In this document: positions 41,122 to 61,293 of the stretch, piece after piece
How positions within the stretch are numbered: the stretch's first letter is position 1
How the letters are laid out: each line of letters begins with the position of its first letter
Origin: Phycisphaerae bacterium
Lineage (GTDB): Bacteria; Planctomycetota; Phycisphaerae; UBA1845
Direction of reading: 5' to 3'
Length of the DNA: 64,000 nt
Assembly: GCA_029260215.1 (NCBI GenBank)
Contig: JAJDDQ010000021.1
Location: 1 to 64,000, forward strand
Program-made: the position numbers and the translations under genes
The notes under the pieces: model-generated
The model's database searches: none
The model's input: the letters and a program-made list of their open reading frames with translations, nothing else
Told to the model about the DNA's origin: nothing

Positions 41122-42432
41122 ATGTTCTATGTCTTGCAGTTGAGTTGTAGCTTGCCAATGACAACACACACGCCAAACGATGCGATGGCTGGCCTGTCCG
41201 GTTCCGGGCAGCAGTCTGATTCATCCGGTGATGTGCGTCCGGTCAGGCGTTTCGGCTGGCGCGCTCGGGTGTTGGCGGTCTTATTGTCGTTTGTGGTGGC
41301 GATGATGTTGGCGGAGGTTGCCCTGCGCGTCCTTGGTGTTCAAAAGGGCGGCATCATTGTGATGAACGACTATTGGACGGGCAGCAGTTACATTCCCAAC
41401 CGCGAGTTGATGAACGAACGTGAAGGCCGATCGCTGGTGCGGATCAACAGCGTGGGACTTCACGATCATGAGACAACCGTCGCCAAGCCGGACGGCGTTT
41501 TTCGGATCGCGTTTCTCGGTGACTCGTTTATCGATGCCCGTCAGGTTGATCTGGAGGAGGCTGTTACGGAGAAGCTGGAAAAGAAGTTGAGCGAGCAGGG
41601 ACGATACGAGGTGCTCAACTTCGGCGTGAACGGTTTCTCGACCGCTCAGGAGTATCTGCGGCTGCGCGAGTTCGCCATGCCGTTCGAGCCGGATGTGGTG
41701 ATCTTCGGCCTGCACACGGGCAACGATATTCGGGATAATCACAAATCTTTGTCTGCTTATACTCGGCCATTCTTTCATCTGACTGAGGACGGGGGTTTGG
41801 AATTTGATGCCGGGTTTCGCGATTTCACCGGGTGGCGGTTCGCGCTTCGGAATGAGGACTCGAAGACCTGGCGGGCGATCAGTTGGGTGACGACGCACGT
41901 TCGGTTGGCGGGGGTGGCTATCGAGGCGCTTCGTCACACGCTGGCCAAGCCCAGGGCGCCGCGGGCGGACGGCGGGTTGGCCAAGTATCATCCGGGGATC
42001 GCCGGGGACTGGCGCATCTATGATCCGAATCCGACGGGGGAGTGGGCTGAGGCGTGGACGATTACAGAGAGACTCTTGCTGCGGTCGAGGGAATTGTGCG
42101 ATGCGCACGGCGCCCGGTTTGTGGTGGTTGCGATTACCAATCCGCCGCAGGTGTGGGATGAGGCACGGACGTACTTCGCCGAGCACAAACCCGAACTGGA
42201 CCTCGATGACCCCGATCGACGATTGGCTGATTTTTGCGGTCGGAATGGCATTGCGTTTCTGACGCTTGTGCCCGAGTTCTTGCAGCATCACCGGGACAGT
42301 GGCGATCTGATGCACGGGTTTGGAGAACAAGCCGGGCTGGGGCATTGGAATCAGACCGGTCATCGGCTGGCTGCGAACCGTATCGCCCGATTTCTGGTGG
42401 AGGAGCGACTGATTCCGATGGCTGCGCCGTGA
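41122..42432 (+). CDS. Membrane-anchored SGNH-hydrolase-like protein
   Basis: 436 residues (424 if the start is ATG 41158; neither has a good ribosome binding site). A membrane segment (VLAVLLSFVVAMMLAEVALR) is followed by an SGNH/GDSL domain: GDSF (Ser nucleophile), NFGVNGFST (Gly, Asn), GLHTGND and the late GHWNQTGH with the catalytic His. This layout belongs to O-acetyl or other ester modifying enzymes of surface glycans. It heads a co-directional cluster with a YLDPGTG small protein, a kinase-like/methyltransferase protein and a sulfatase-like protein. Likely reaction: acylating or deacylating a surface polymer outside the membrane. Confidence 0.8.
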   Translation: MFYVLQLSCSLPMTTHTPNDAMAGLSGSGQQSDSSGDVRPVRRFGWRARVLAVLLSFVVAMMLAEVALRVLGVQKGGIIVMNDYWTGSSYIPNRELMNEREGRSLVRINSVGLHDHETTVAKPDGVFRIAFLGDSFIDARQVDLEEAVTEKLEKKLSEQGRYEVLNFGVNGFSTAQEYLRLREFAMPFEPDVVIFGLHTGNDIRDNHKSLSAYTRPFFHLTEDGGLEFDAGFRDFTGWRFALRNEDSKTWRAISWVTTHVRLAGVAIEALRHTLAKPRAPRADGGLAKYHPGIAGDWRIYDPNPTGEWAEAWTITERLLLRSRELCDAHGARFVVVAITNPPQVWDEARTYFAEHKPELDLDDPDRRLADFCGRNGIAFLTLVPEFLQHHRDSGDLMHGFGEQAGLGHWNQTGHRLAANRIARFLVEERLIPMAAP

Positions 42433-42519
42433 ATAGGTGGTGGGGCGGCTGATTGGAAATGTTGCATTTCGTGTTAGCATTGATGCTTGTGGTTGTCGTG
42501 GTCTATGGGTAACGGGCGA

Positions 42520-42732
42520 ATGCGAATTGTTCCGGGTGTTGTCGTTTGTACGCTGTGGCTGTCATCGGACGCGCTGGGTTACCTGGACCCAGGGACGGGG
42601 AGCTTCATTTTTCAGGCGGTGATCGCGGTCGTTTGCGGTGCGGGGTTGGGGATCAAGATGTTCTGGTCGCGCATTCGGGCTGCATTCAGTCGCAAAGGCA
42701 AGGGCGACTCCGACGAGCGGTCGAAACCGTGA
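42520..42732 (+). CDS. Small YLDPGTGS membrane protein
   Basis: 70 residues from ATG 42520; an earlier start at 42505 adds five residues. A signal-like N terminus (MRIVPGVVVCTLWLSSD) is followed by YLDPGTGSFIFQAVIAVVCG and a second hydrophobic segment (AGLGIKMFWSRIRAAFSR), with a basic tail. I recall similar YLDPGTGS small proteins in exopolysaccharide clusters, but no function has a firm name. It overlaps the next gene by four bases (GTGA). It may be an assembly factor or a lipid-carrier partner for this cluster. Confidence 0.75.
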   Translation: MRIVPGVVVCTLWLSSDALGYLDPGTGSFIFQAVIAVVCGAGLGIKMFWSRIRAAFSRKGKGDSDERSKP

Positions 42733-44114
42733 CGGACAAGGTCGATGCCGCTTCATTCCGCGATCCGAGCGGATTCGTCTACGGCCGCGATGGGCGAATC
42801 CTGCGGCAGGTCAACCAATCTTACAAGACTCACTTCGACGGCCTGATTGAATCGGGTTTGTATGACGAACTGGTCGCGGATGGTTTGCTCGTTTCGCACG
42901 AGGAGATGTCGCTGGCTTATGCGCATTGTGGCGAAGTCGCGTACAAGGTGATTGCGCCGAAAGTTGTGCCGCTCATTTCGTATCCGTATGAATGGTGTTT
43001 CAGTGCCTTTTGTGACGCGGCACTGTGTACGCTGGAGATTCAGCGGCGCGCGATGGATCGCGGTATGTGTCTCAAGGATGCGAGTGCTTACAACATTCAA
43101 TTCGTTGACGGCGAGCCGGTGCTGATCGATACGCTCTCGTTTGAGCTGTACGAGGACGGGCGACCGTGGACGGCTTACCGGCAATTTTGTCAGCATTTTC
43201 TGGGGCCTTTGAGTTTGATGAGCCGTTGCGATGTGCGTTTGGGACAGTTGATGCGCGTGTATCTTGACGGTGTCCCTCTTGACCTGGTGTCGTCACTTCT
43301 GCCGGGGCGGACGCGGTTGAATCTGGGCTTGGGGATGCATATACACGCGCACGCGAGGGCGCAGCGGCGATACGCGGGCGTTGCGGCGCGCAGCGGGGAG
43401 CGTCGCGTTTCGAAATTCGGATTGGCTGCGTTGGTGGACAGTTTGACGTTGGCTATTCGTCGGTTGACGTGGCGACCCGAGGGGACGGAGTGGGGCGGTT
43501 ACTACAAGAATACGAACTACGCGGCTGAGGACATGGCGTGTAAGCGGAAACTTGTTGGGGATTTTTTGAGTCGTATCGAGGCGGGGACGGTGTGGGATGT
43601 CGGTGCGAACATCGGGGAGTTCAGTCGGACGGCGATGGGATTGGGAGCGTCAGTTGTGTCGTTTGATATTGACCCGGCTGCGGTGGAGAAGAATTATCTC
43701 GCGGTGCGGGCGGCGGGTGAGCGGGGGATTCTGCCGCTGCTCATCGACCTGACGAATCCGAGTCCGGCGATCGGGTGGGCCAATCGCGAGCGCGGGACGA
43801 TCGCCGAGCGGGGTCGGCCTGACGCGGTGATGGCGCTCGCACTGATTCATCATCTGGCGATATCGAACAATGTGCCGTTGGCGATGACGGCTGAGTATTT
43901 TGCGTCGCTGAGCGATCGTCTGATTATCGAATGGGTGCCGAAGACGGACTCGCAGGTTCAACGTTTGCTGGCCACGCGCGAGGATATTTTTGGCGAATAC
44001 ACGCAGGCGGGGTTTGAGGCTGCGTTTGGAACGCACTTTGAGACGTTGACCAGTGAGCGCGTTGGCGGTTCGCAGCGACGACTCTACCTGATGCGCGGGG
44101 TGCGGAAAGCGTGA
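42729..44114 (+). CDS. Kinase-like domain fused to an S-adenosylmethionine methyltransferase
   Basis: 461 residues from GTG 42729, overlapping the preceding stop; codons further upstream are in the previous gene. Residues of about 5-200 contain CLKDASAYNIQFVDGEPVLI followed by DTLSFE, reminiscent of the catalytic loop and Asp of aminoglycoside/LPS kinases. From about 270 comes a class I methyltransferase: TVWDVGANIGEFSRTAMGLG (SAM motif I), VVSFDIDPAAVEKNY (motif II) and ALALIHHLAISNNV. Such fusions are seen with NoeA-like proteins, which alter sugars. The product likely methylates a sugar, with the N-terminal domain possibly binding or phosphorylating it. Membrane segments are absent, so it acts in the cytoplasm before export. 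Confidence 0.75.
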   Translation: MTDKVDAASFRDPSGFVYGRDGRILRQVNQSYKTHFDGLIESGLYDELVADGLLVSHEEMSLAYAHCGEVAYKVIAPKVVPLISYPYEWCFSAFCDAALCTLEIQRRAMDRGMCLKDASAYNIQFVDGEPVLIDTLSFELYEDGRPWTAYRQFCQHFLGPLSLMSRCDVRLGQLMRVYLDGVPLDLVSSLLPGRTRLNLGLGMHIHAHARAQRRYAGVAARSGERRVSKFGLAALVDSLTLAIRRLTWRPEGTEWGGYYKNTNYAAEDMACKRKLVGDFLSRIEAGTVWDVGANIGEFSRTAMGLGASVVSFDIDPAAVEKNYLAVRAAGERGILPLLIDLTNPSPAIGWANRERGTIAERGRPDAVMALALIHHLAISNNVPLAMTAEYFASLSDRLIIEWVPKTDSQVQRLLATREDIFGEYTQAGFEAAFGTHFETLTSERVGGSQRRLYLMRGVRKA

Positions 44115-45652
44115 TGGCCGACGCGAAGCGTGCATCTTGGCCTGTGCATCTCTTGTTGATCGCGTTGTTTCCGGTGGTTTCGCTGCTCGGGCAGAATGTG
44201 GATCGCCTTCATGGTACGGAGCCTTTGCTGCCTATGGTGTGTGCGTTTGTGTTGGCAGCTCTTGCGTGGGGCGTGGCGTGTGTGATCGTGCGGGACGGGC
44301 GACGTGGGGCGCTGTTCGCGTCGTGGACGATGTTTCTGTTTTTCGCGTTCGGACATGGGGCGACAATGGCGCAACGTGTCGTTTCTTATGAGCGTGCAGC
44401 CGCTGCGGTGGGTCTCGGTTTCGGTTTGCTTTGGATAGGCGGTCTTTGGGTTTTGCACTTGGCCAAAGCGCATACGAACATGCTGACGACTCTGTTGAAT
44501 CGGATCGCGTGGATACTCGTGCTGATACCAGCCGCAACGGCTGCGTTTCGTGTGGTGGGGGGTGGATCGGGGCTAACCTCGACGCTGGAGCCGATTCGGT
44601 TTTCGGCGAGTTTGGATCACAAGCCGGACATCTACTTCATCGTGCTTGACGCCTACGGTCGCGGTGACGTGTTGCGTGAGTTGTTCGACTATGACAACCG
44701 TGAGTTTCTCGACGGATTGCGCCGGCGCGGGTTCTTTGTGGACGAGCTGGCGCGATCGAACTATGTGCAAACGTTCTTGTCGGTGGCGTCTTCGTTGAAT
44801 GCCTGCCATCTCGATCATGTGGTGGCCGCAGTGGGGAAGGAGCGTGTCGATCGCGGGCCTCTCGGCGAGATGATCCGTGACAGTCGGGTGGTTCGGGCGT
44901 TGCGGCGGGAGGGCTATCGGCATGTCACGTTCGCGACGGGCTATTGGGGAACGGAGATTTGGACGGCTGACGAGAGGTTGTCGCCTCGGTGGGCGTTGAG
45001 CGAGTTTGACAATCTGTGGCTGAGTATGACGCCGCTGCCGTATTTTGGTGTGCTGACGCGCGGCGTGCAGTATGCGTCGCATCGCAACCGCGTGCGGTTC
45101 ACGCTTGATTCGCTGGGGACGCTCGACGATGTTGAGGGGCCTAAATTCGTGTTCGCCCACGTGGTCGCGCCGCATCCGCCGTTTGTGTTTGATGCGAAGG
45201 GGAACCCGCTGACGCCGAGTCGACCGTTCTCGTTTGCGGACGGCAGTCACTTTATGATTCAGGGTGATCGGGAGGAGTATCGACGCGGGTACGTGGGGCA
45301 GGTGGCCTACCTGAACACGCAGTTGATGGCTGCGATCGATCGGCTGCTCGCGTCGCCGCGGGGTGAGCCGGTGATTATTCTGCAGGGCGATCATGGGCCT
45401 GGGTCTGAATTGGACTGGTGGAGCGTGGAGGAGAGCAACTTGCGCGAGCGTACGGCGATACTCAGTGCGCTGCGTTTGCCCGGTGGGGCGGTCGATGGGC
45501 TACGCGATGGCATGACGCCGGTGAACACGTTCCGCGTGGTGCTCAACGAATTGTTTGGGGCGGGGTTGGAGATGCTTGACAATCGGAGCTTCTATTCCGC
45601 GATCGATAGGCCTTATGATTTGATTGACGTGACGGAGTTGGTTGGAGAGTGA
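44114..45652 (+). CDS. Membrane sulfatase/LTA-synthase-like phosphotransferase
   Basis: 512 residues from ATG 44114 (TGATG overlap with the previous stop). The N-terminal 150 residues hold about four membrane spans. The catalytic part begins near HKPDIYFIVLDAYGRGDVLR, with the alkaline-phosphatase-fold metal site (Asp) and the expected nucleophile region, then FVFAHVVAPHPPFVFDAKGN and ILQGDHGPGSELDWWS with the late Asp-His pair. LTA-synthase, sulfatase and phosphoethanolamine transferase all share it. It most likely transfers or cleaves a phospho- or sulfo-group on surface glycans. It closes the cluster. Confidence 0.82.
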   Translation: MADAKRASWPVHLLLIALFPVVSLLGQNVDRLHGTEPLLPMVCAFVLAALAWGVACVIVRDGRRGALFASWTMFLFFAFGHGATMAQRVVSYERAAAAVGLGFGLLWIGGLWVLHLAKAHTNMLTTLLNRIAWILVLIPAATAAFRVVGGGSGLTSTLEPIRFSASLDHKPDIYFIVLDAYGRGDVLRELFDYDNREFLDGLRRRGFFVDELARSNYVQTFLSVASSLNACHLDHVVAAVGKERVDRGPLGEMIRDSRVVRALRREGYRHVTFATGYWGTEIWTADERLSPRWALSEFDNLWLSMTPLPYFGVLTRGVQYASHRNRVRFTLDSLGTLDDVEGPKFVFAHVVAPHPPFVFDAKGNPLTPSRPFSFADGSHFMIQGDREEYRRGYVGQVAYLNTQLMAAIDRLLASPRGEPVIILQGDHGPGSELDWWSVEESNLRERTAILSALRLPGGAVDGLRDGMTPVNTFRVVLNELFGAGLEMLDNRSFYSAIDRPYDLIDVTELVGE

Positions 45653-45702: not shown

Positions 45703-46698
45703 TTACTCCCGTTGCATTTTCCGCTCAAGTAGTTTCTTTGAAATGTCCCAAATCATGTTGTGGCCTTCTATGTGAATCTGGATTGACGTCGCGATTGCAC
45801 ACATGCCTAGGTACGTCGCTTTTTCAGTTCCATGCATCCACACGTTGTCTCCGATAGTTTGCACGTGAGCGATGCCGTCGCCGTCAACTGACTGCTGCGA
45901 GACGCCGACATTTCGACAAGAAGAATTTGGATGGCAGAACTCAGATAGATAGTCGTATACCACTAGAATGTGCGCATGTTCACGGCGTTTTTGTATTTTT
46001 TCAAGCAGCGAGAGTATATTGATTTGGTTGATTTTGAAGAAATCAAGAATCTCGCCTGCTTTGCTTTGGTCCTCTTGTTCAGACTTAGGTTTCGATGTGT
46101 ACTGAGTGCTATTTCTGAAACGCTTCCACCCCGCGACGTCGTCTGTTTCAATCCTTCCCGTGACAAGTTGGCGCGATCCGTGTTGGAATCGGGTAAGATC
46201 ATCAACTAAGTCCGATTTATAGAGTCCAGAATCTCCAACAGAATTATCGTCATCGAGAAAACCCAGCACATTTTGTTCGATAAGCTCGCGTTTTCCCTGA
46301 ATTTTGTAGCACAAATTGTAGTAACTCGCGGAGCATTCCAACGCCGATCTCGCCGTGAGCGCCATGACCGACGCAATCCTGTGCTCCAAGCCCAACATGA
46401 ATCCGTCAACCAAATCCCGTAGATTGCGGTCGGCAGAAGACATCGCAACCCTTATTCGTCCGCCGATCTCGTACCAGTGATTGACGTAGTATTCTCTTTG
46501 CGCTTCGTTCTCTTCGGGCATCGTTGCCGGAAAAGAATGAGTCATCGTTTTCGGGATTGTGTCGAATAGGCGAGCGGCTTTGGAAATTGAGTCAAAGAAG
46601 TCTCGAATGACATCAGCCTCGATTTCACTCTGGGATAGCGATTCATCAGCAGCGCTAGATAGCTGATGGATTGAATGAGCTTCATGTTGATGTTTCAT
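45703..46698 (-). CDS. Orphan protein of unknown function, AT-rich
   Basis: 331 residues from ATG 46698; the frame is open to 46785. I recognise no family. It is helical and soluble, with no signal peptide or membrane segment. A central part (LTARSALECSASYYNLCYKI) and YDYLSEFCHPNSSCRNVGVS look like all-alpha nucleic-acid or HEPN-like folds, and RREHAH could imitate the R-x4-H pattern of HEPN nucleases, but this is weak. It is clearly more AT-rich than its neighbours, so it may be a recent arrival. It lies between the glycan cluster and mrp. Confidence 0.6.
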   Translation of the reverse strand: MKHQHEAHSIHQLSSAADESLSQSEIEADVIRDFFDSISKAARLFDTIPKTMTHSFPATMPEENEAQREYYVNHWYEIGGRIRVAMSSADRNLRDLVDGFMLGLEHRIASVMALTARSALECSASYYNLCYKIQGKRELIEQNVLGFLDDDNSVGDSGLYKSDLVDDLTRFQHGSRQLVTGRIETDDVAGWKRFRNSTQYTSKPKSEQEDQSKAGEILDFFKINQINILSLLEKIQKRREHAHILVVYDYLSEFCHPNSSCRNVGVSQQSVDGDGIAHVQTIGDNVWMHGTEKATYLGMCAIATSIQIHIEGHNMIWDISKKLLERKMQRE

Positions 46699-46877
46699 GG
46701 TTTCTGTTACGTCTCGCTCATCGCGCTGCCAGCAGACCGGCAGAAAAGTGGGTTCAACAGATTCCTGTTCGGTACATGCCGTCAAGGCGACCTAGCAACG
46801 ACATTACAGATTCGCCCCAAAGCGTGCAATAGGCAACGGAATCCGAACGTTACGGGCTGGCAACATGCGCCTGTGTG

Positions 46878-55048: not shown

Positions 55049-58000
55049 TCAGCGAAAATCACGTGAGAGATACGGAAGCTGAGCCATCCACGATTCGATG
55101 TTCTTGAATTTCCGGGCGAGCACGTGGACGACGATCCCTTGCCGTTCGACCTTTCCCCGGACGATGACGGCTCTCGCGTGGATCGCAGCTTCTCGGTACT
55201 GCTGATAAACTTGTGGCCGAACGATCAGATCAATGCGGGCGGTTTCATCCTCAAGGGTCATGAACATGATGCCTTTGGCGGTTCCCGGTCGCTGTCGAAA
55301 GAGCACGACGCCGGCGACCGCCACGAACCGTCCATATGGTGTTCGTCTTTGGTCTTTGACCTCCGCCGCCGTCAGAACACCACAATGAACAAGTCGTTCG
55401 CGCAGAAACGAGAGCGGGTGAGCCTTCAATGACAATCCGGTCGCGGTGTAGTCCTTCAGCGCGTCGTCCGATCGTGATGCCGATGGCAGTTCGATGCTCG
55501 GCCCAATAGACTCGGGCCTGGAATCCAGCAATGGCAGGTCATCATCACGAAGTCGGCGAACCTCCCACAGTGCATGCTGCCGATCCACCCCCATCGACCC
55601 GAAAGCGTCCGCCTGAGCGAGCGCCCGAAAGGATGCGACACGGGCACCGCTCGCCCGCCACAACGCAAAGACCGAGGAGAATCCTGCCCGACGCTTGGTT
55701 GCGTCCGCGATTGCGCATCCATCTGATTTCCCGAGGCCTTTCACCATGCGCATGCCCAATCGCAACACCTCACCGCCATCTTCGAGCGTGCAATCCCATT
55801 CGCTGAGGTTGGTGTCGACCGCCCGCACACGAACGCCGTGGTCCCGGGCATCACGGACGATCTGGGCCACCCCATAGAAACCCATCGGCTGACTGTTCAA
55901 CAACGCAGCCGCAAACGCTGCCGGGTAACGGTATTTCAGCCATGCCGAGGCATAGACCAGTAACGCAAAGCTGGCGGCGTGAGACTCGGGAAAGCCATAC
56001 TCGCTGAAACCCTTCAATCGCTGGAAACACCAATCGGCGAATTCTTTGCTGTATCCGTTGGCAAGCATTCCCTCGATGAAACGTGTGGTGTAGCGAGCAA
56101 TTCTGTCTTTGCTTGTCCAAGCCGTGATCGCACGCCTGAGTTGTTCCGCCTCTCCCGGCGTGAAACCCGCAGCCACGATCGCCAGCGCCATTGCTTGTTC
56201 CTGAAAGATGGGCACCCCGAGCGTTCGTTGCAAAACGTCGCGGATTTTATCGTCGGGATAATACGGTTCTTCTTTACGGTCCCGACGGCGAAGATACGGA
56301 TGCACCATCTTGCCGATGATCGGTCCGGGGCGGACGATGGCCACTTCGATGACCAGATCGTAATAGTTGCGGGGCTTGAGTCTTGGCAGCATGGTCATTT
56401 GTGCCCGCGACTCAACTTGAAACACGCCCAACGTGTCAGCCCGGCAAAGCATGTCGTACACGCCGGTATCTTCCGGGGGGAGCGTCGCCAGCGTGACGAC
56501 TTGGCTGTGATGTTTTTTCAGAAGCTCAAAGCCCTTGCGAATGCAGGTCAACATCCCCAGCCCGAGGATATCCACCTTCAACATCCCCAAGGCATCGATG
56601 TCGTCCTTGTCCCATTCGATCACGGTTCTGTCGGGCATGGCTGCGTTTTCGATTGGCACGAAATCATGCAACGGAGATTGCGTAATGACAAAGCCGCCCG
56701 GATGCTGGGAAAGGTGTCGCGGGAAACCGATCAATTCCTGAACACGCTTCACCAACAGGCGAATCGTGCGATCATGGGGATTGAAACCTAGCAATTCCAG
56801 CGTTCTCGATCCCTCACCATTGAAATCTCTGATCCAGTGGCTCAGCCGTTTGGCCAACCGATCAACCGCATCCTCTGAAAGTCCCAACACCTTGCCCACG
56901 TCACGCACGGCGCTTCTGCCGCGGTAAGTAATGACGACCGCCGTTAGTGCGGCGCGATCCCGGCCGTATTTTTCGTATATATATTGGAGTACTTCCTCCC
57001 GCCGTTCATGCTCGAAGTCGATGTCGATATCCGGCGGTTCGTCCCGCTCCCGGCTGACGAACCGTTCAAACAACACGTTGATTCTGTCGGGATCAACCGA
57101 GGTCACACCGAGGCAGTAACACACAGCCGAGTTGGCGGCTGCGCCCCGACCCTGACACAAAATGTTTCTGGATCGCGCAAAGGAAACGATATCATGCACG
57201 GTGAGAAAATACGGGGCGTATTGCAGTTCCTCTATCAGTGAAAATTCGTGTTCGATTTGCCGGGTGACCTTGTCCGGAACGCCACAGGGAAACCGATCGT
57301 GAGCGCCCTTCCAAGTCAACTTCCGCAGATACGCCATCGGCGTCACGCCTTTGGGGCGGTGCTCATCGGGATATTCGTAGCGAAGCTGGTCCAGCGAAAA
57401 ACCCGCCGCCCGCTCTGCGATCGTCTGTGTTCGTGCAATCGCATCGGGATATTCGGTGAAGAGTCGGATCATTTCATCCGGTGGTTTTAGATAGCGTTCG
57501 CCGTTGGGAAACAACCGAAAACCGGCTTCGGTGATCGTGCAACCGTGTCGAACGCACGTCACCACATCCTGCAACGCCTGTCGCTCGGGATGGTGGTAGT
57601 GAACATCGTTGACCGCCACCAGAGGCACTTCGGCGTCTTTGGAAAGCCTAACGATTTCTGTTGCGTGCTGTGTGTCTTGCGGGCCGTAAAAGCGAACAAG
57701 GGCTACAGAGAGACGGTCGTCGTCAAACACCTTCCGTAGCTTTCGAAGCCACTGAACCGCATCACCTGGAATCTCATGACACAACACGACGGCGAGTAGG
57801 CCATCGTGATGTTCGAGAAGATCGTCGACCGTCAGCAGGCATTTCCCTTTAGAGGCTCGTCGTTTTCCCAACGTGAGCAATCGACAGAGTCGGGCATAGG
57901 CATCGCGATTCGTGGGATACACTAAAATGGAAAGCCAATCATGATCCGCAAACCGCAGGCGACATCCCACGATAAGCTGCACGCCAGTTTCCTTCGCCGC

Positions 58001-58240
58001 GACGTGTGCCCGAACCATACCGGCGATGGAATTGGTGTCCGTCAAAGCGATAGCGTCATAGCCAATCCGGGCTGATTGATCGACCAGTTCGTCGGGATGG
58101 CTTGCTCCCTGCAGAAACGAAAAGTTGCTCGTAACGGCGAGTTCAACATAGGGGGACTGCTTGTGTGGAGACGTGGTCGTCTCATGGCTTGCTCTGAGAT
58201 ACGGATGGACATGAACTTTGGAATCGGGTGGATCGGGCAT
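55049..58240 (-). CDS. dnaE2: Error-prone DNA polymerase DnaE2 (mutasome catalytic subunit)
   Basis: 1063 residues. PHP domain at about 31-270 (YVELAVTSNFSFLQGASHPD, IALTDTNSIAG), palm with the catalytic Asp residues in PDIDIDF (403-409) and MLKVDILGLG (Asp557), then fingers, helix-hairpin-helix and a C-terminal OB-fold (FVAVAGVVLFRQRPGTAKGI, about 960-1050). The length of about 1060 distinguishes it from the replicative DnaE1 (about 1150-1200). It lengthens primers across lesions with ImuB. ATG 58240 lies three bases after the imuB stop, so imuA-imuB-dnaE2 form one translationally tight unit. Typically SOS-induced, but no LexA-like box was identified. Confidence 0.95.
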   Translation of the reverse strand: MPDPPDSKVHVHPYLRASHETTTSPHKQSPYVELAVTSNFSFLQGASHPDELVDQSARIGYDAIALTDTNSIAGMVRAHVAAKETGVQLIVGCRLRFADHDWLSILVYPTNRDAYARLCRLLTLGKRRASKGKCLLTVDDLLEHHDGLLAVVLCHEIPGDAVQWLRKLRKVFDDDRLSVALVRFYGPQDTQHATEIVRLSKDAEVPLVAVNDVHYHHPERQALQDVVTCVRHGCTITEAGFRLFPNGERYLKPPDEMIRLFTEYPDAIARTQTIAERAAGFSLDQLRYEYPDEHRPKGVTPMAYLRKLTWKGAHDRFPCGVPDKVTRQIEHEFSLIEELQYAPYFLTVHDIVSFARSRNILCQGRGAAANSAVCYCLGVTSVDPDRINVLFERFVSRERDEPPDIDIDFEHERREEVLQYIYEKYGRDRAALTAVVITYRGRSAVRDVGKVLGLSEDAVDRLAKRLSHWIRDFNGEGSRTLELLGFNPHDRTIRLLVKRVQELIGFPRHLSQHPGGFVITQSPLHDFVPIENAAMPDRTVIEWDKDDIDALGMLKVDILGLGMLTCIRKGFELLKKHHSQVVTLATLPPEDTGVYDMLCRADTLGVFQVESRAQMTMLPRLKPRNYYDLVIEVAIVRPGPIIGKMVHPYLRRRDRKEEPYYPDDKIRDVLQRTLGVPIFQEQAMALAIVAAGFTPGEAEQLRRAITAWTSKDRIARYTTRFIEGMLANGYSKEFADWCFQRLKGFSEYGFPESHAASFALLVYASAWLKYRYPAAFAAALLNSQPMGFYGVAQIVRDARDHGVRVRAVDTNLSEWDCTLEDGGEVLRLGMRMVKGLGKSDGCAIADATKRRAGFSSVFALWRASGARVASFRALAQADAFGSMGVDRQHALWEVRRLRDDDLPLLDSRPESIGPSIELPSASRSDDALKDYTATGLSLKAHPLSFLRERLVHCGVLTAAEVKDQRRTPYGRFVAVAGVVLFRQRPGTAKGIMFMTLEDETARIDLIVRPQVYQQYREAAIHARAVIVRGKVERQGIVVHVLARKFKNIESWMAQLPYLSRDFR

Positions 58241-58243
58241 GGT

Positions 58244-59788
58244 TTAAGCCCACTCGCCGTGGATGAACCATTGGCCGGAATTACACTCACGAAAGAGCCA
58301 GAACCACCGGCCCGCGTCCGTTTGCACGGCGAAATAATCACGCACCGATACGGAATCGTCGCTCCACCAGGGCAGCGTAATTCGTTCCGGCCCAAAGCTC
58401 ACTTGAACGTTACTGGCCCATCCTCGCCATTGCATCCAAGCGGGCGGACCGTCGGGCACGAGGGCCAGAACACGAACGCGTTCGGGGCGATGAAATAATT
58501 GCGAGGGACGGGGCGCATCGTACGTCGCCGCGTCGGGTGATCGTGCGTGTTGAAGCATGCTCAGTGGTCTACCCGTAAACGCCCGTTCTGGCACATGGGT
58601 CTCACACGGTTGAATCGTCGCCACCGCCTGTGTGCCCAGACGATTGGTGAGTTGGTCGAGCAAGATTCCCAGATCGGCTTCGGAGCAGGTTTTGTCGGGT
58701 TCCAGGTCGGGCGACAACGAAAGCTGATCGCAAACAACCGGAGCGGTGCGTTCAGCCTCAAGCTCGATGCAGAGAACTCCGCGTCCGAGATGGGTTCGTT
58801 CCAGCTTGGGTTCAAGCAATTTCCACACGTGACGCTCGTCTCGCGTGGGATAGCTGAGTGCCAGCGACAGAATGGCGGGTGGCAGGCCGCTTCGCTGAAC
58901 CGTTCCCTTGAAACGCATCAGCCCATGCTCCCGGCGTTCCAGTTGTTTGAGGAGGTCGGCGAGAAGTTTTTTTGTGACATTTTGAATGATTGAAGCTCTG
59001 ACCACAGGGGCGTTGAATTCGTGAGCGGCCACGTCCCTTGTTTCGGGCCACAAAGGCGTGATGGTTTCATGTTTGCGACCAAGAGCCTGATCGAGTCGCT
59101 TCAATAGCGTGCCATCAAACCGGGCAACCAGTTCCGCGCGTGGGATCGTGAACAATTGGCCTATCCGTTCGATCGAAACGTCGGACAGTGCTGCACACGT
59201 TTTCGGTTCAACCCGCAAACCCGCAATCGGCAACGGGGCAAGCGTGGCTTCCAATGTGTCATGCGGCACGAATGTTTGGAGACAAACCCCGTAACGGGCC
59301 ACCGCCCACGCACATCCAAACGTGGGTGCAAGCGCGACACAGGCACGCAGACCGAGTTGTTTCAGAGCGTAATAAACTTTATCAACAAGCGGTCGTTCGC
59401 CGCCAAAAACCCGCTCACAACCAGCAATGTCAACCAACACGCCATCGGGATAATCCGCCGCGACGAGAGGTGAAAAACGGTGCATCCAGCGAGCGAGCTT
59501 TCGCAGCGCCTCTCTGTCTTCCGCAGGCGTGTGATCCATAACGTGAATGTTCATGCCATGCAGCAACGAACGGGCGTGGGTGAGCGTCATACGCAATCGA
59601 ACACCGGCCTTCTGTGCGTGTCGGCAAGCCTGAACGACAAGCTGTTTACCATGTGTCGTAGCCACAATCAGCACCGGATCAGGCTGGGATGACGTTGGCT
59701 GCCCGTTGTTCGCCGCTTGTTTCGTCAGCCTTCTGGTCGCCAACTGGATCGGCCAATGTGGTAGATAAATCGAGAGTGCTCGTTGCAC
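58244..59788 (-). CDS. imuB: ImuB, catalytically inactive Y-family-like mutasome hub
   Basis: 514 residues from GTG 59788, chosen because GGAG lies seven bases upstream. The Y-family fold is recognisable (RALSIYLPHWPIQLATRRLT at the N terminus, GVLVDIAGCERVFGGE), but the Asp and the DE pair of active polymerases are absent, as in all ImuB. The long C-terminal tail (FRECNSGQWFIHGEWA at the end) normally binds the beta clamp, ImuA and DnaE2. It overlaps imuA by 110 bases. It is a scaffold, not an enzyme. A DinB-like polymerase was considered and rejected for the missing acids. Confidence 0.9.
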   Translation of the reverse strand: MQRALSIYLPHWPIQLATRRLTKQAANNGQPTSSQPDPVLIVATTHGKQLVVQACRHAQKAGVRLRMTLTHARSLLHGMNIHVMDHTPAEDREALRKLARWMHRFSPLVAADYPDGVLVDIAGCERVFGGERPLVDKVYYALKQLGLRACVALAPTFGCAWAVARYGVCLQTFVPHDTLEATLAPLPIAGLRVEPKTCAALSDVSIERIGQLFTIPRAELVARFDGTLLKRLDQALGRKHETITPLWPETRDVAAHEFNAPVVRASIIQNVTKKLLADLLKQLERREHGLMRFKGTVQRSGLPPAILSLALSYPTRDERHVWKLLEPKLERTHLGRGVLCIELEAERTAPVVCDQLSLSPDLEPDKTCSEADLGILLDQLTNRLGTQAVATIQPCETHVPERAFTGRPLSMLQHARSPDAATYDAPRPSQLFHRPERVRVLALVPDGPPAWMQWRGWASNVQVSFGPERITLPWWSDDSVSVRDYFAVQTDAGRWFWLFRECNSGQWFIHGEWA

Positions 59789-60494
59789 GATCCCACTCCA
59801 TGATCCATTTTGCACGGATTGTTTCGAGCTGCACTCCCTTGCAACGCACAAGTTCAAGTGTCCAACAGGGTTTGATGGATACCGTGTTGCTACTCAATGT
59901 TGGATGCACCAACCACCGACTCTGGGCTGCGGACAGTTCGTGTCGTTCCCACGGCGGCCTTGTCAGCAGTGCCCACGTCTGATGGCTTTGGGCGAGCAAC
60001 TGAACACGACGCGTCGCCGCCATCGAAAACGTACTCCCGTCGGCAATAACCGCACCGACGGCAGGACAACGAAGGGCGACATCGATAGCCCAGAAGTGCG
60101 AATCAGCATTCTTCGTGGTAATGAACAACGACTGTTCCAACATCGCGCGTTTCCGGTCCCTTCCGACAAGAGCCGCGCCGTAGGGAAAGCATCGCTCGCC
60201 GACCCAGACAACCCATCGCATCGGCCAAGCCCGTTTAACCCGCCGAGCAAGATGCACCAGCGCGCAGACAGGTGGACTCCAGCGTCCTCGCCGTGCTCTT
60301 GATCGTTTTTGCTGAAAGGGCTGATCCGCAACCCCAAACCATTCATGCAAACCGCAAGGCAGACCGCCGAACGATTCATCCACCGCATGCCAGCCGGTTT
60401 TGAGTACCGCGTGTTTTCGATCGTGCCACGATCTGATGTGAGACCGCGTCGCATGTTCCCGCTCGATATCACGGATACGATGCGCAAGATTCAT
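59679..60494 (-). CDS. imuA: ImuA, RecA-like mutasome accessory protein
   Basis: 271 residues. RecA/SulA-like fold, with LKTGWHAVDESFGGLPCGLH at the start and VVWVGERCFPYGAALVGRDR in the middle. No intact Walker A is visible, as usual for ImuA. The position directly upstream of imuB and dnaE2 confirms the identification. It overlaps imuB by 110 bases, which is long and fits a start inside the previous gene. It regulates mutasome assembly with ImuB. Confidence 0.88.
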   Translation of the reverse strand: MNLAHRIRDIEREHATRSHIRSWHDRKHAVLKTGWHAVDESFGGLPCGLHEWFGVADQPFQQKRSRARRGRWSPPVCALVHLARRVKRAWPMRWVVWVGERCFPYGAALVGRDRKRAMLEQSLFITTKNADSHFWAIDVALRCPAVGAVIADGSTFSMAATRRVQLLAQSHQTWALLTRPPWERHELSAAQSRWLVHPTLSSNTVSIKPCWTLELVRCKGVQLETIRAKWIMEWDRATSTLDLSTTLADPVGDQKADETSGEQRAANVIPA

Positions 60495-60606
60495 GACGCC
60501 CCCAACCTTCCCCCGGACCGGCGAGTGTTAGGTTTATGTTAGGTATTCGGCGCGAGGATTGCAAGCCCCAAAAATGAAAATTTACAAGCCGTGTTCCTGT
60601 AATGCG

Positions 60607-61293
60607 TTACGACGCAGCGGCTAAGCAAGCCGGGTCGTCGTTACGCGGATTGTTCACGTGACGCGACACCGGATACGCAGCCAGTATCTCCGGGGCTGGC
60701 GCCAACAACGGTGTGAGCCGTTCCACATCCCTCATGGATGGGTCAAACCAAAGCTCGTAATCGCGCGGTTCGAGAATGACGGGCATACGGTTATGCAACT
60801 CGGCCATGAGTTTATTCGGTGAGGTCGTCAGAATCGTATACGACTCAATCGTCTCTCCGTTCGGGTCGCGCCATCGTTCCCACAAGCCTGCGAAGGCGAA
60901 CACACGTTCATCAATCCGGCGGATATTGAACGGCTGCTTTTGAGGCTTGCCGCCGTTGTCGCTACCTTCGCACTTCCATTCGTAAAATCCGGTTGCGGGC
61001 ACAAGGCATCGTTGGCTTTGCAACGGTTTGCGAAACGATGGTTTGTCCGCAACCGTCTCCGAGCGGGCGTTAATCATTCGGCTGCCGATCCCCGCATCTT
61101 TCGCCCAATGCGGAATGAGTCCCCAGCGAAGCTGTTCAAGTCGTGGCCTTGAATCCCCCTCCAACACACGAACTACCGGCGCAAACTGAGTCGGAGCGAT
61201 GTTGTATCGCGAATCAAGAAAAACCGCCCCCCCAAGATCAAACGCCGGGATGAGTTCCTCGTCCGACGTTGCAAAGCTGTAGCGTCCGCACAT
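60607..61293 (-). CDS. yedK: SRAP-domain protein (YedK/HMCES, abasic-site shield)
   Basis: 228 residues. The N-terminal MCGRYSFAT provides Cys2, which bonds covalently with abasic sites in single-stranded DNA once the Met is removed. Also present are YNIAPTQ, WGLIPHWAKDAGIGSRMINA followed by RSET, GFYEWK with the catalytic Glu, and HNRMPVIL with the His. All active-site residues are intact, so it should protect replication forks at abasic lesions. It is the most tRNA-proximal whole gene of the island, on the same strand as the mutasome (113 bases upstream of imuA). The two could share a promoter. Confidence 0.93.
   Translation of the reverse strand: MCGRYSFATSDEELIPAFDLGGAVFLDSRYNIAPTQFAPVVRVLEGDSRPRLEQLRWGLIPHWAKDAGIGSRMINARSETVADKPSFRKPLQSQRCLVPATGFYEWKCEGSDNGGKPQKQPFNIRRIDERVFAFAGLWERWRDPNGETIESYTILTTSPNKLMAELHNRMPVILEPRDYELWFDPSMRDVERLTPLLAPAPEILAAYPVSRHVNNPRNDDPACLAAAS

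Follow-up and report, generated by a model that had tools for sequence, protein, structure and literature searches.

In this work, we have analysed a cluster of four genes at positions 41122-45652 of a 64,000-nucleotide stretch of DNA from a Phycisphaerae bacterium of the phylum Planctomycetota (GenBank assembly GCA_029260215.1, contig JAJDDQ010000021.1, positions 1 to 64,000; the whole stretch is called here the window). Our results show that the conserved unit is the trio formed by the last three genes, which code for a small protein with the motif YLDPGTG (YLD), a kinase-like/methyltransferase protein (KMT) and an alkaline-phosphatase-fold membrane protein (SULF), and that the core of this unit is the YLD-KMT pair, YLD being a near-obligate partner of KMT. 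On sequence grounds, KMT and SULF are relatives of the rhizobial proteins NoeA and NoeB, and the trio probably decorates the cell surface with a phosphate-based group. The remaining gene, SGNH, looks like a neighbour outside the conserved unit, an accessory of this lineage at most. The four genes are arranged as follows.

42520-42732, forward strand: YLD, 70 aa, alternative starts at 42487 and 42505; by alignment and hydropathy, a signal-peptide-like segment, YLDPGTGS, a membrane segment (residues 25-49) and a basic tail
42729-44114, forward strand: KMT, GTG start, 461 aa; by NoeA homology, predicted model and fold comparison, a kinase-like part (residues ~1-250) and a class I S-adenosylmethionine-dependent methyltransferase domain (residues 252-460)
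44114-45652, forward strand: SULF, ATG start, 512 aa, GTG alternative at 44111; by Pfam match (PF00884), model and folds, five N-terminal helices and an alkaline-phosphatase-fold domain, with T220 as the likely nucleophile
41122-42432, forward strand: SGNH, 436 aa, second in-frame ATG at 41158

A preliminary description of this DNA had reported four co-directional genes with overlaps among the last three, and this layout is present: all four reading frames lie on the forward strand, YLD and KMT overlap by 4 bases, and KMT and SULF overlap by 1 base from the ATG of SULF or by 4 bases from its GTG. The spacing between SGNH and YLD is 54-87 bases, depending on the start of YLD.

Recurrence of the trio and of its core pair

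A scan of species genomes with KMT gave 532 relatives, and our locus counts rest on the best 80 (53-60% identical), which come from Planctomycetota, Chloroflexota, Bacillota, Patescibacteria, Omnitrophota, Myxococcota and others; because these loci were picked via KMT, they are uninformative on how frequent KMT is. Of the 76 other loci in which DNA upstream of KMT is available, 68 have YLD in the 700 bases preceding it (69/77 with the window); SULF follows KMT within 700 bases in 39 of the 70 other loci with downstream DNA (40/71 with the window). Among the eight loci where YLD is not upstream of KMT, it stands divergently beside KMT in L023, just after it in L029 and elsewhere in the genome in L016, L024, L052 and L065; L037 and L058, the latter with 305 bases upstream only, have no YLD upstream of KMT. 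When the genomes behind 50 of the 80 fetched loci were taken, YLD was present in 49, sometimes far from KMT. In the KMT tree, 63 of the 81 rows were assigned to 23 phylum names, and since relatives of YLD, KMT and SULF stand together across them, their grouping is not due to chance. Resolution of the tree is poor, with 44 of its 78 inner branches left open, and its five Planctomycetota rows need five changes, the same as in shuffles; from these sequences, transfer of KMT between phyla is possible. Distances between KMT copies correlate with those between SULF copies (r 0.55, 30 loci) and YLD copies (r 0.43, 58 loci), values reached by none of 2000 permutations in either case, with host kinship not removed. 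Two loci stand somewhat apart: in L209:6060-6885 an intact YLD lies beside a KMT in pieces over several frames, either a decayed copy or an assembly error, and L047, a record titled Klebsiella pneumoniae MAG (metagenome-assembled genome), carries the trio at 58% identity, so that its label may be wrong.

The pairing of YLD with KMT holds when whole genomes are surveyed. In 794 genomes of three phyla, KMT was found in 53, of which 50 also had YLD, and YLD was found alone in 3. The 294 Planctomycetota genomes, that of the window included, gave KMT in 21 (E 1e-20), YLD in 20 (E 0.001) and both in 19, with YLD adjoining KMT in 19 of the 21 loci, window included. The only YLD-only genome of this phylum is G250, whose match (E 1.6e-4) falls inside a 475-residue frame; the KMT-only genomes are G093, where KMT sits at a contig end, and G152, which has the most distant KMT. 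Two further YLD matches, at E 0.001-0.01, fall in long unrelated frames. The surveys of Chloroflexota and Pseudomonadota were each centred on, and included, one genome chosen for KMT. For the 201 Chloroflexota genomes the counts were 25 with KMT (profile, E 1e-10; in pieces in G439), 26 with YLD and 25 with both, G371 being YLD-only; for the 299 Pseudomonadota genomes they were 7, 7 and 6, with KMT only in G668 and a weak YLD only in G656. The overlaps expected by chance, uncorrected for kinship, are 1.4, 3.2 and 0.2 in Planctomycetota, Chloroflexota and Pseudomonadota, respectively. KMT is thus patchy (7%, 12% and 2% of the genomes of these phyla), and YLD follows it.

SULF is a looser companion in these surveys. 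With at most five candidates scored per genome, 12 of the 294 Planctomycetota genomes have the closer SULF family (E 1e-60), and KMT is present in 11 of these. At that threshold SULF is missing from 10 of the 21 Planctomycetota genomes with KMT, several of which carry a more distant match of the superfamily there. In the Pseudomonadota loci L226-L228, a weak superfamily match (E 4e-5, 7e-6 and 4e-3) lies between YLD and KMT.

Predicted features of KMT, SULF and YLD

The fusion of kinase-like and methyltransferase parts in KMT, as first described, is borne out by homology to the NoeA family and by the fold of the C-terminal part. KMT is 37.3% identical to the product of the annotated Sinorhizobium noeA (97% coverage, E 2e-73), and its Pfam search gave a sub-threshold methyltransferase match only. 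Structure prediction, which the preliminary description had suggested, was run for KMT and SULF, with a mean predicted local distance difference test score (pLDDT) of 91.7 and 92.1, respectively. Among the 50 structures listed for KMT, residues 252-460 match class I methyltransferases with Z 16.6-18.6; the best folds listed include MePCE (Z 18.5, root-mean-square deviation (rmsd) 3.3, 193 residues aligned), whose database entry is titled methylphosphate capping enzyme, and BCDIN3D (Z 16.9), listed as methylating an RNA end phosphate. The O-antigen-capping enzyme WbdD is at Foldseek rank 4; by sequence, the profile of our KMT alignment (69 of 79 usable rows plus the window) reaches WbdD at E 0.43-0.63 only, level with other methyltransferases. 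Because the methyltransferase domain filled the structures listed, the absence of kinases among them is no evidence. Residues R26, D117, N122 and D134 are invariant in all 70 rows of the alignment, and may be read as the residues described for the Legionella protein Lani_1194 in the available part of its account. In the model, the last strand runs to residue 457 of the 461, which leaves no room for a coiled coil.

SULF exceeds the cut-off of the Pfam Sulfatase family (PF00884) narrowly, with 26.1 bits against 25. Its model has five helices within residues 12-148, four of which are also marked by a hydropathy scan, followed by the enzymatic domain. The closest fold is EptC (Z 22.7, rmsd 3.5, 288 residues aligned), then YejM/PbgA, and then sulfatases and MCR-1. 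The alkaline-phosphatase-fold membrane enzyme of the first reading is therefore upheld by the Pfam match, the five-helix model and the EptC-like fold, and, as modelled, SULF is built like the phosphotransferases of this fold (EptC, EptA and LtaS). In an alignment of 46 rows (all 45 rows plus the window, some of them from places away from KMT), D179 is conserved in 45, T220 in 42 with serine in the other 4, D426 in 46 and H427 in 38. Formylglycine sulfatases obtain their formylglycine from a Cys/Ser-x-Pro/Ala-x-Arg motif; T220 lies in QTFLSVASSLN, where there is no such motif, and we rejected a formylglycine sulfatase for SULF.

The reading frame of the tiny YLDPGTG protein is present, as had been noticed. 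In the YLD alignment (67 of 73 rows, the window and one rhizobial row), Y21 and D23 are kept in 69 of 69 rows, some of whose seeds were picked by a Y-x-D-P pattern. By a crude test, a hydrophobic N-terminal segment is found in 64 of 73 relatives and is missing from 9; a cleavage-like end follows it in 57 of the 64. The basic tail is poorly conserved. From the positive-inside rule, the YLDPGTGS end should lie outside and the basic tail inside, with or without cleavage. YLD has no Pfam match above cut-off and no relative of solved structure up to E 1, and the YLDPGTG motif was not found in the literature searched.

YLD away from KMT and a distant KMT

YLD also occurs away from KMT, in 16 distinct copies (18 rows; two copies are in both L041 and L188), with matches beyond 1e-4 (those of G250 and G656, for example) left out. 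For 13 of the 16 copies, a gene that matches the SULF profile or a phosphodiesterase query is found no more than 3 kb away, although some of these matches are weak (to 6e-4) and L179 and L180 come from close relatives. At baseline positions, more than 6 kb from any YLD or KMT, an alkaline-phosphatase-superfamily gene is near in 71 of 453, and for the KMT-linked YLD rows, overlapping loci kept, the figure is 69 of 94. In L135, L136 and L182 the lone copy has no such gene nearby; in L182, YLD adjoins an SGNH gene. The findings that seem to be new here are how constant YLD is and that it is tied to alkaline-phosphatase-superfamily genes generally.

The surroundings of the lone copies differ between groups. 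In Leptolinea (L179, L180), YLD is near NeuB and cytidylyltransferase genes. In three Chloroflexota loci (L185:7103-9892, L206:7016-11698 and L207:6277-8937), YLD is accompanied by a type I phosphodiesterase-family gene and then a sulfotransferase-family gene, between which L206 has in addition a sulfatase-family protein. In L133:1892-6807, from Planctomycetota, YLD is followed by genes for a phosphoenolpyruvate (PEP) mutase-cytidylyltransferase, a phosphonopyruvate decarboxylase and an Fe-alcohol dehydrogenase; SULF genes stand at both ends of this set, an MBOAT gene is nearby, and YLD thus lies between SULF and phosphonate genes, the latter in the place expected for KMT. Conversely, the KMT of G152 (L146:5576-9250, 27% identity), the most distant of the Planctomycetota survey, has neither YLD nor SULF and is immediately preceded by genes for an ABC-2 permease and an ATPase carrying a Wzt C-terminal domain. 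This exporter context supports, for that branch of KMT, a possible role in glycan-end capping.

SGNH and other features of the window

SGNH narrowly misses the cut-off of the Pfam family Lipase_GDSL_2 (32.6 bits, E 1.5e-7, cut-off 32.9) and is a borderline SGNH/GDSL-type hydrolase by sequence, with one N-terminal membrane segment (residues 44-74) by hydrophobicity. Its family is present in 2 of the 138 other stretches compared, some of which overlap: in L182 the relative adjoins YLD, and in L077 it lies ~4 kb beyond KMT in reversed orientation. Six further relatives are encoded in its own genome. The preliminary description had taken all four genes as one unit, and had itself named their being found rarely together as what would speak against this; as SGNH is rarely near the other three, the quartet falls on its own terms, and we rejected it as a unit.

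We also scanned the neighbours of the trio, taking the nearest reading frame on each side by a crude longest-frame rule (87 of 135 were scanned, mostly same-strand or larger). The only recurrent family is Sulfatase (12 of 87), all others having three members or fewer, and a plain surface-polymer cluster was rejected. No glycosyltransferase family occurs in more than 2 of the 87 proteins, and these neighbours give no support to a polymer, or indeed any glycan, as the target. ABC_tran occurs in 2 of the 87; no O-antigen-type exporter was seen beside the trio of the window.

A promoter and terminator scan found about as many sites as in shuffles and was uninformative, and a comparison with 50,697 phage records, made to look for a link to phages, gave zero matches (E 0.001). 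Two further features of the window are as follows.

45703-46785, reverse strand: 360-aa reading frame, convergent, just downstream of the trio; no Pfam match to E 0.01
55049-61293, reverse strand: row of genes for DNA polymerase III alpha, an impB/mucB/samB-family protein, an unmatched 271-aa reading frame and an SOS-associated peptidase

The latter row looks like an SOS mutagenesis cassette of the ImuA/ImuB/DnaE2 kind, in which the polymerase is likely DnaE2 and the 271-aa frame likely ImuA.

Mechanism and alternative explanations

From the genes and their overlaps, their relatives, the conserved residues, the YLD-KMT pairing and the predicted folds, we infer a reaction, a substrate and a role for YLD. 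We propose, tentatively but as a quite possible reading, that the trio is a NoeA-NoeB-type unit in which KMT phosphorylates and methylates, YLD holds and SULF acts outside. Cytosolic KMT would add phosphate to a hydroxyl of a headgroup or of a sugar carried on a lipid, and would then methylate that phosphate, as WbdD does with the opposite domain order. YLD, with its YLDPGTGS end outside and its basic tail inside, would hold KMT at the membrane beside SULF. At the outer face of the membrane, SULF would transfer or trim a group linked through phosphate. A surface glycan or lipid would in this way come to carry a small phosphate-type ornament, and in Sinorhizobium the unit would have been placed under nodulation control. 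Decoration, already considered the likeliest role at first sight, is kept here as the best reading.

Several points weigh against this proposal. In 31 of the 70 other loci with downstream DNA, the gene directly after KMT is not SULF, and each glycan-assembly family is found in at most 2 of the 87 scanned neighbours. Since KMT-linked copies were used to build the YLD profile, other YLDs may have been missed and the pairing somewhat overstated; the pairing counts also ignore genome kinship. SULF lies near hydrolases too (sulfatases reach Z 21.6), so transfer and cleavage are alike possible, and at the position of H427 8 of the 46 rows have E. Tied with MePCE among the folds of KMT are ChlM (Z 18.6) and NodS (Z 17.9), which are not phosphate-acting enzymes, so the methyltransferase fold by itself is no pointer to phosphate, and the KMT structure matches listed (VIA-align) cover residues 252-460 only, with the kinase-like half outside them. 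The L133 arrangement is a single case, and the L146 copy, being without YLD and SULF, may differ in role. Finally, Nod factors were reportedly unchanged in noeA or noeB mutants in work of 1995, so the known noeA/noeB case too is without a product, and none was found in the literature searched.

A further role for YLD is conceivable but unlikely: YLD may be a dedicated membrane-spanning subunit whose YLDPGTGS end binds alkaline-phosphatase-fold enzymes outside and whose basic tail binds KMT inside, KMT and phosphonate synthesis (as in L133) being interchangeable headgroup modules. If YLD bridges in this way, a headgroup made in the cytosol would be handed to a transferase outside. It is rather improbable that the trio serves protein or regulatory modification, with the kinase-like half as a regulator or pseudokinase, the methyltransferase acting on a membrane protein or on the tail of YLD, SULF as a phosphatase and YLD as the substrate. 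YLD is indeed the most faithful companion of KMT, and its basic tail, if cytosolic, would be within reach of KMT; but this tail is poorly conserved, the catalytic-type D117, N122 and D134 are present in 70 of 70 KMT rows, unlike in a pseudokinase, and some relatives have nodL, NeuB-type or Wzt-type neighbours, which suggest glycan or small-molecule work.

The trio could instead modify a secreted small signal resembling a lipo-oligosaccharide, before or after its export, which we consider doubtful to a similar degree. Such a role has been proposed for Nod factors and in Legionella: two genome papers, as far as the parts of these sources at hand go, give noeA and noeB as host-range genes of Sinorhizobium, one of them adding that they are thought to modify Nod factors (PMC9048898, PMC4053727), and Krysinska et al. 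(PMC9758233), in the portion available, suggest that secreted factors or the envelope are decorated. Relatives of KMT occur, however, in Patescibacteria, Chloroflexota and many other groups. To our knowledge these groups are not known for nodulation, so Nod factors are unlikely as the original target, and the reportedly unchanged Nod factors also speak against it. Least probable of all is the original reading of a four-gene surface polymer cluster, in which SGNH would be an O-deacylase of the same polymer. All four genes are co-directional in the window, and genes for O-acyl work lie near some relatives (nodL in rhizobia, MBOAT in L133, SGNH in L182); yet SGNH lacks a conserved association with the trio, no O-acyl family ranks among the 25 commonest of the 87 neighbours, and a gap of 54-87 bases precedes YLD. 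We consider the NoeA-NoeB-type unit acting on a phosphate group at the membrane to be the most economical reading.

Comparison with known systems

SULF resembles EptC, EptA and LtaS in its five N-terminal helices, its alkaline-phosphatase-fold domain and the threonine at the nucleophile position, the helix number and nucleophile of EptA and LtaS being partly general background; in contrast, it is only 8-13% identical to the listed chains of EptC, YejM and MCR-1. KMT, like WbdD, has a kinase-like part and a class I methyltransferase in one chain. In E. coli O9a, WbdD is described, in the part of the source available, as a kinase and phosphate methyltransferase that caps the O-antigen, with the order methyltransferase, kinase, C-terminal coiled coil (PMC3482155). 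The domain order is reversed in KMT, which has no segment for the coiled coil. One distant KMT, that of L146, does lie beside a Wzt-type exporter, the type used by the O-antigen that WbdD caps.

The NoeA-NoeB-type unit is known in outline; the kinase-methyltransferase family and its conserved neighbours have been described before by Krysinska et al. in 2022, the one study turned up by our literature search on NoeA-like wording and Lani_1194. In the accessible part of that account, the Lani_1194 family combines a kinase and a methyltransferase, and Lani_1193 and Lani_1195 occur in 65% and 38% of 816 neighbourhoods (PMC9758233). KMT belongs to the same family through shared NoeA homology and has the same domain pair. 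The same part of the account does not state the nature of Lani_1193, mention YLDPGTG or give a genome-wide pairing.

The closest known arrangement is the nodL-noeA-noeB operon of Sinorhizobium (S. meliloti/S. medicae, nod box n5). NoeA aligns with 97% of KMT, and the gene of a 71-aa unnamed YLDPGTG protein is placed after nodL and before noeA. The order on a Rhizobium plasmid (L085) is nodL, the 71-residue unnamed YLDPGTG protein, a NoeA-like methyltransferase and a sulfatase-like gene. The annotation of S. medicae (L082) has nodL, the small gene and noeA. The gene after noeA matches the SULF profile at E 5e-18 in L082 and 7e-18 in L085, and more weakly, in two pieces, in L086. The operon differs from the trio in that KMT and NoeA share only 37% identity, and the window has an SGNH gene and no nodL beside the trio. 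The genes noeA and noeB are said to have been listed as host-range genes since 1995. Nodulation is unlikely, in view of how widely relatives occur, as the ancestral role of the NoeA family. That the trio is found under 23 phylum names suggests that noeA and noeB were recruited from an older system for the envelope or for headgroups, and that a small protein, left unnamed beside noeA in the annotations compared, accompanies NoeA-like proteins almost without exception.

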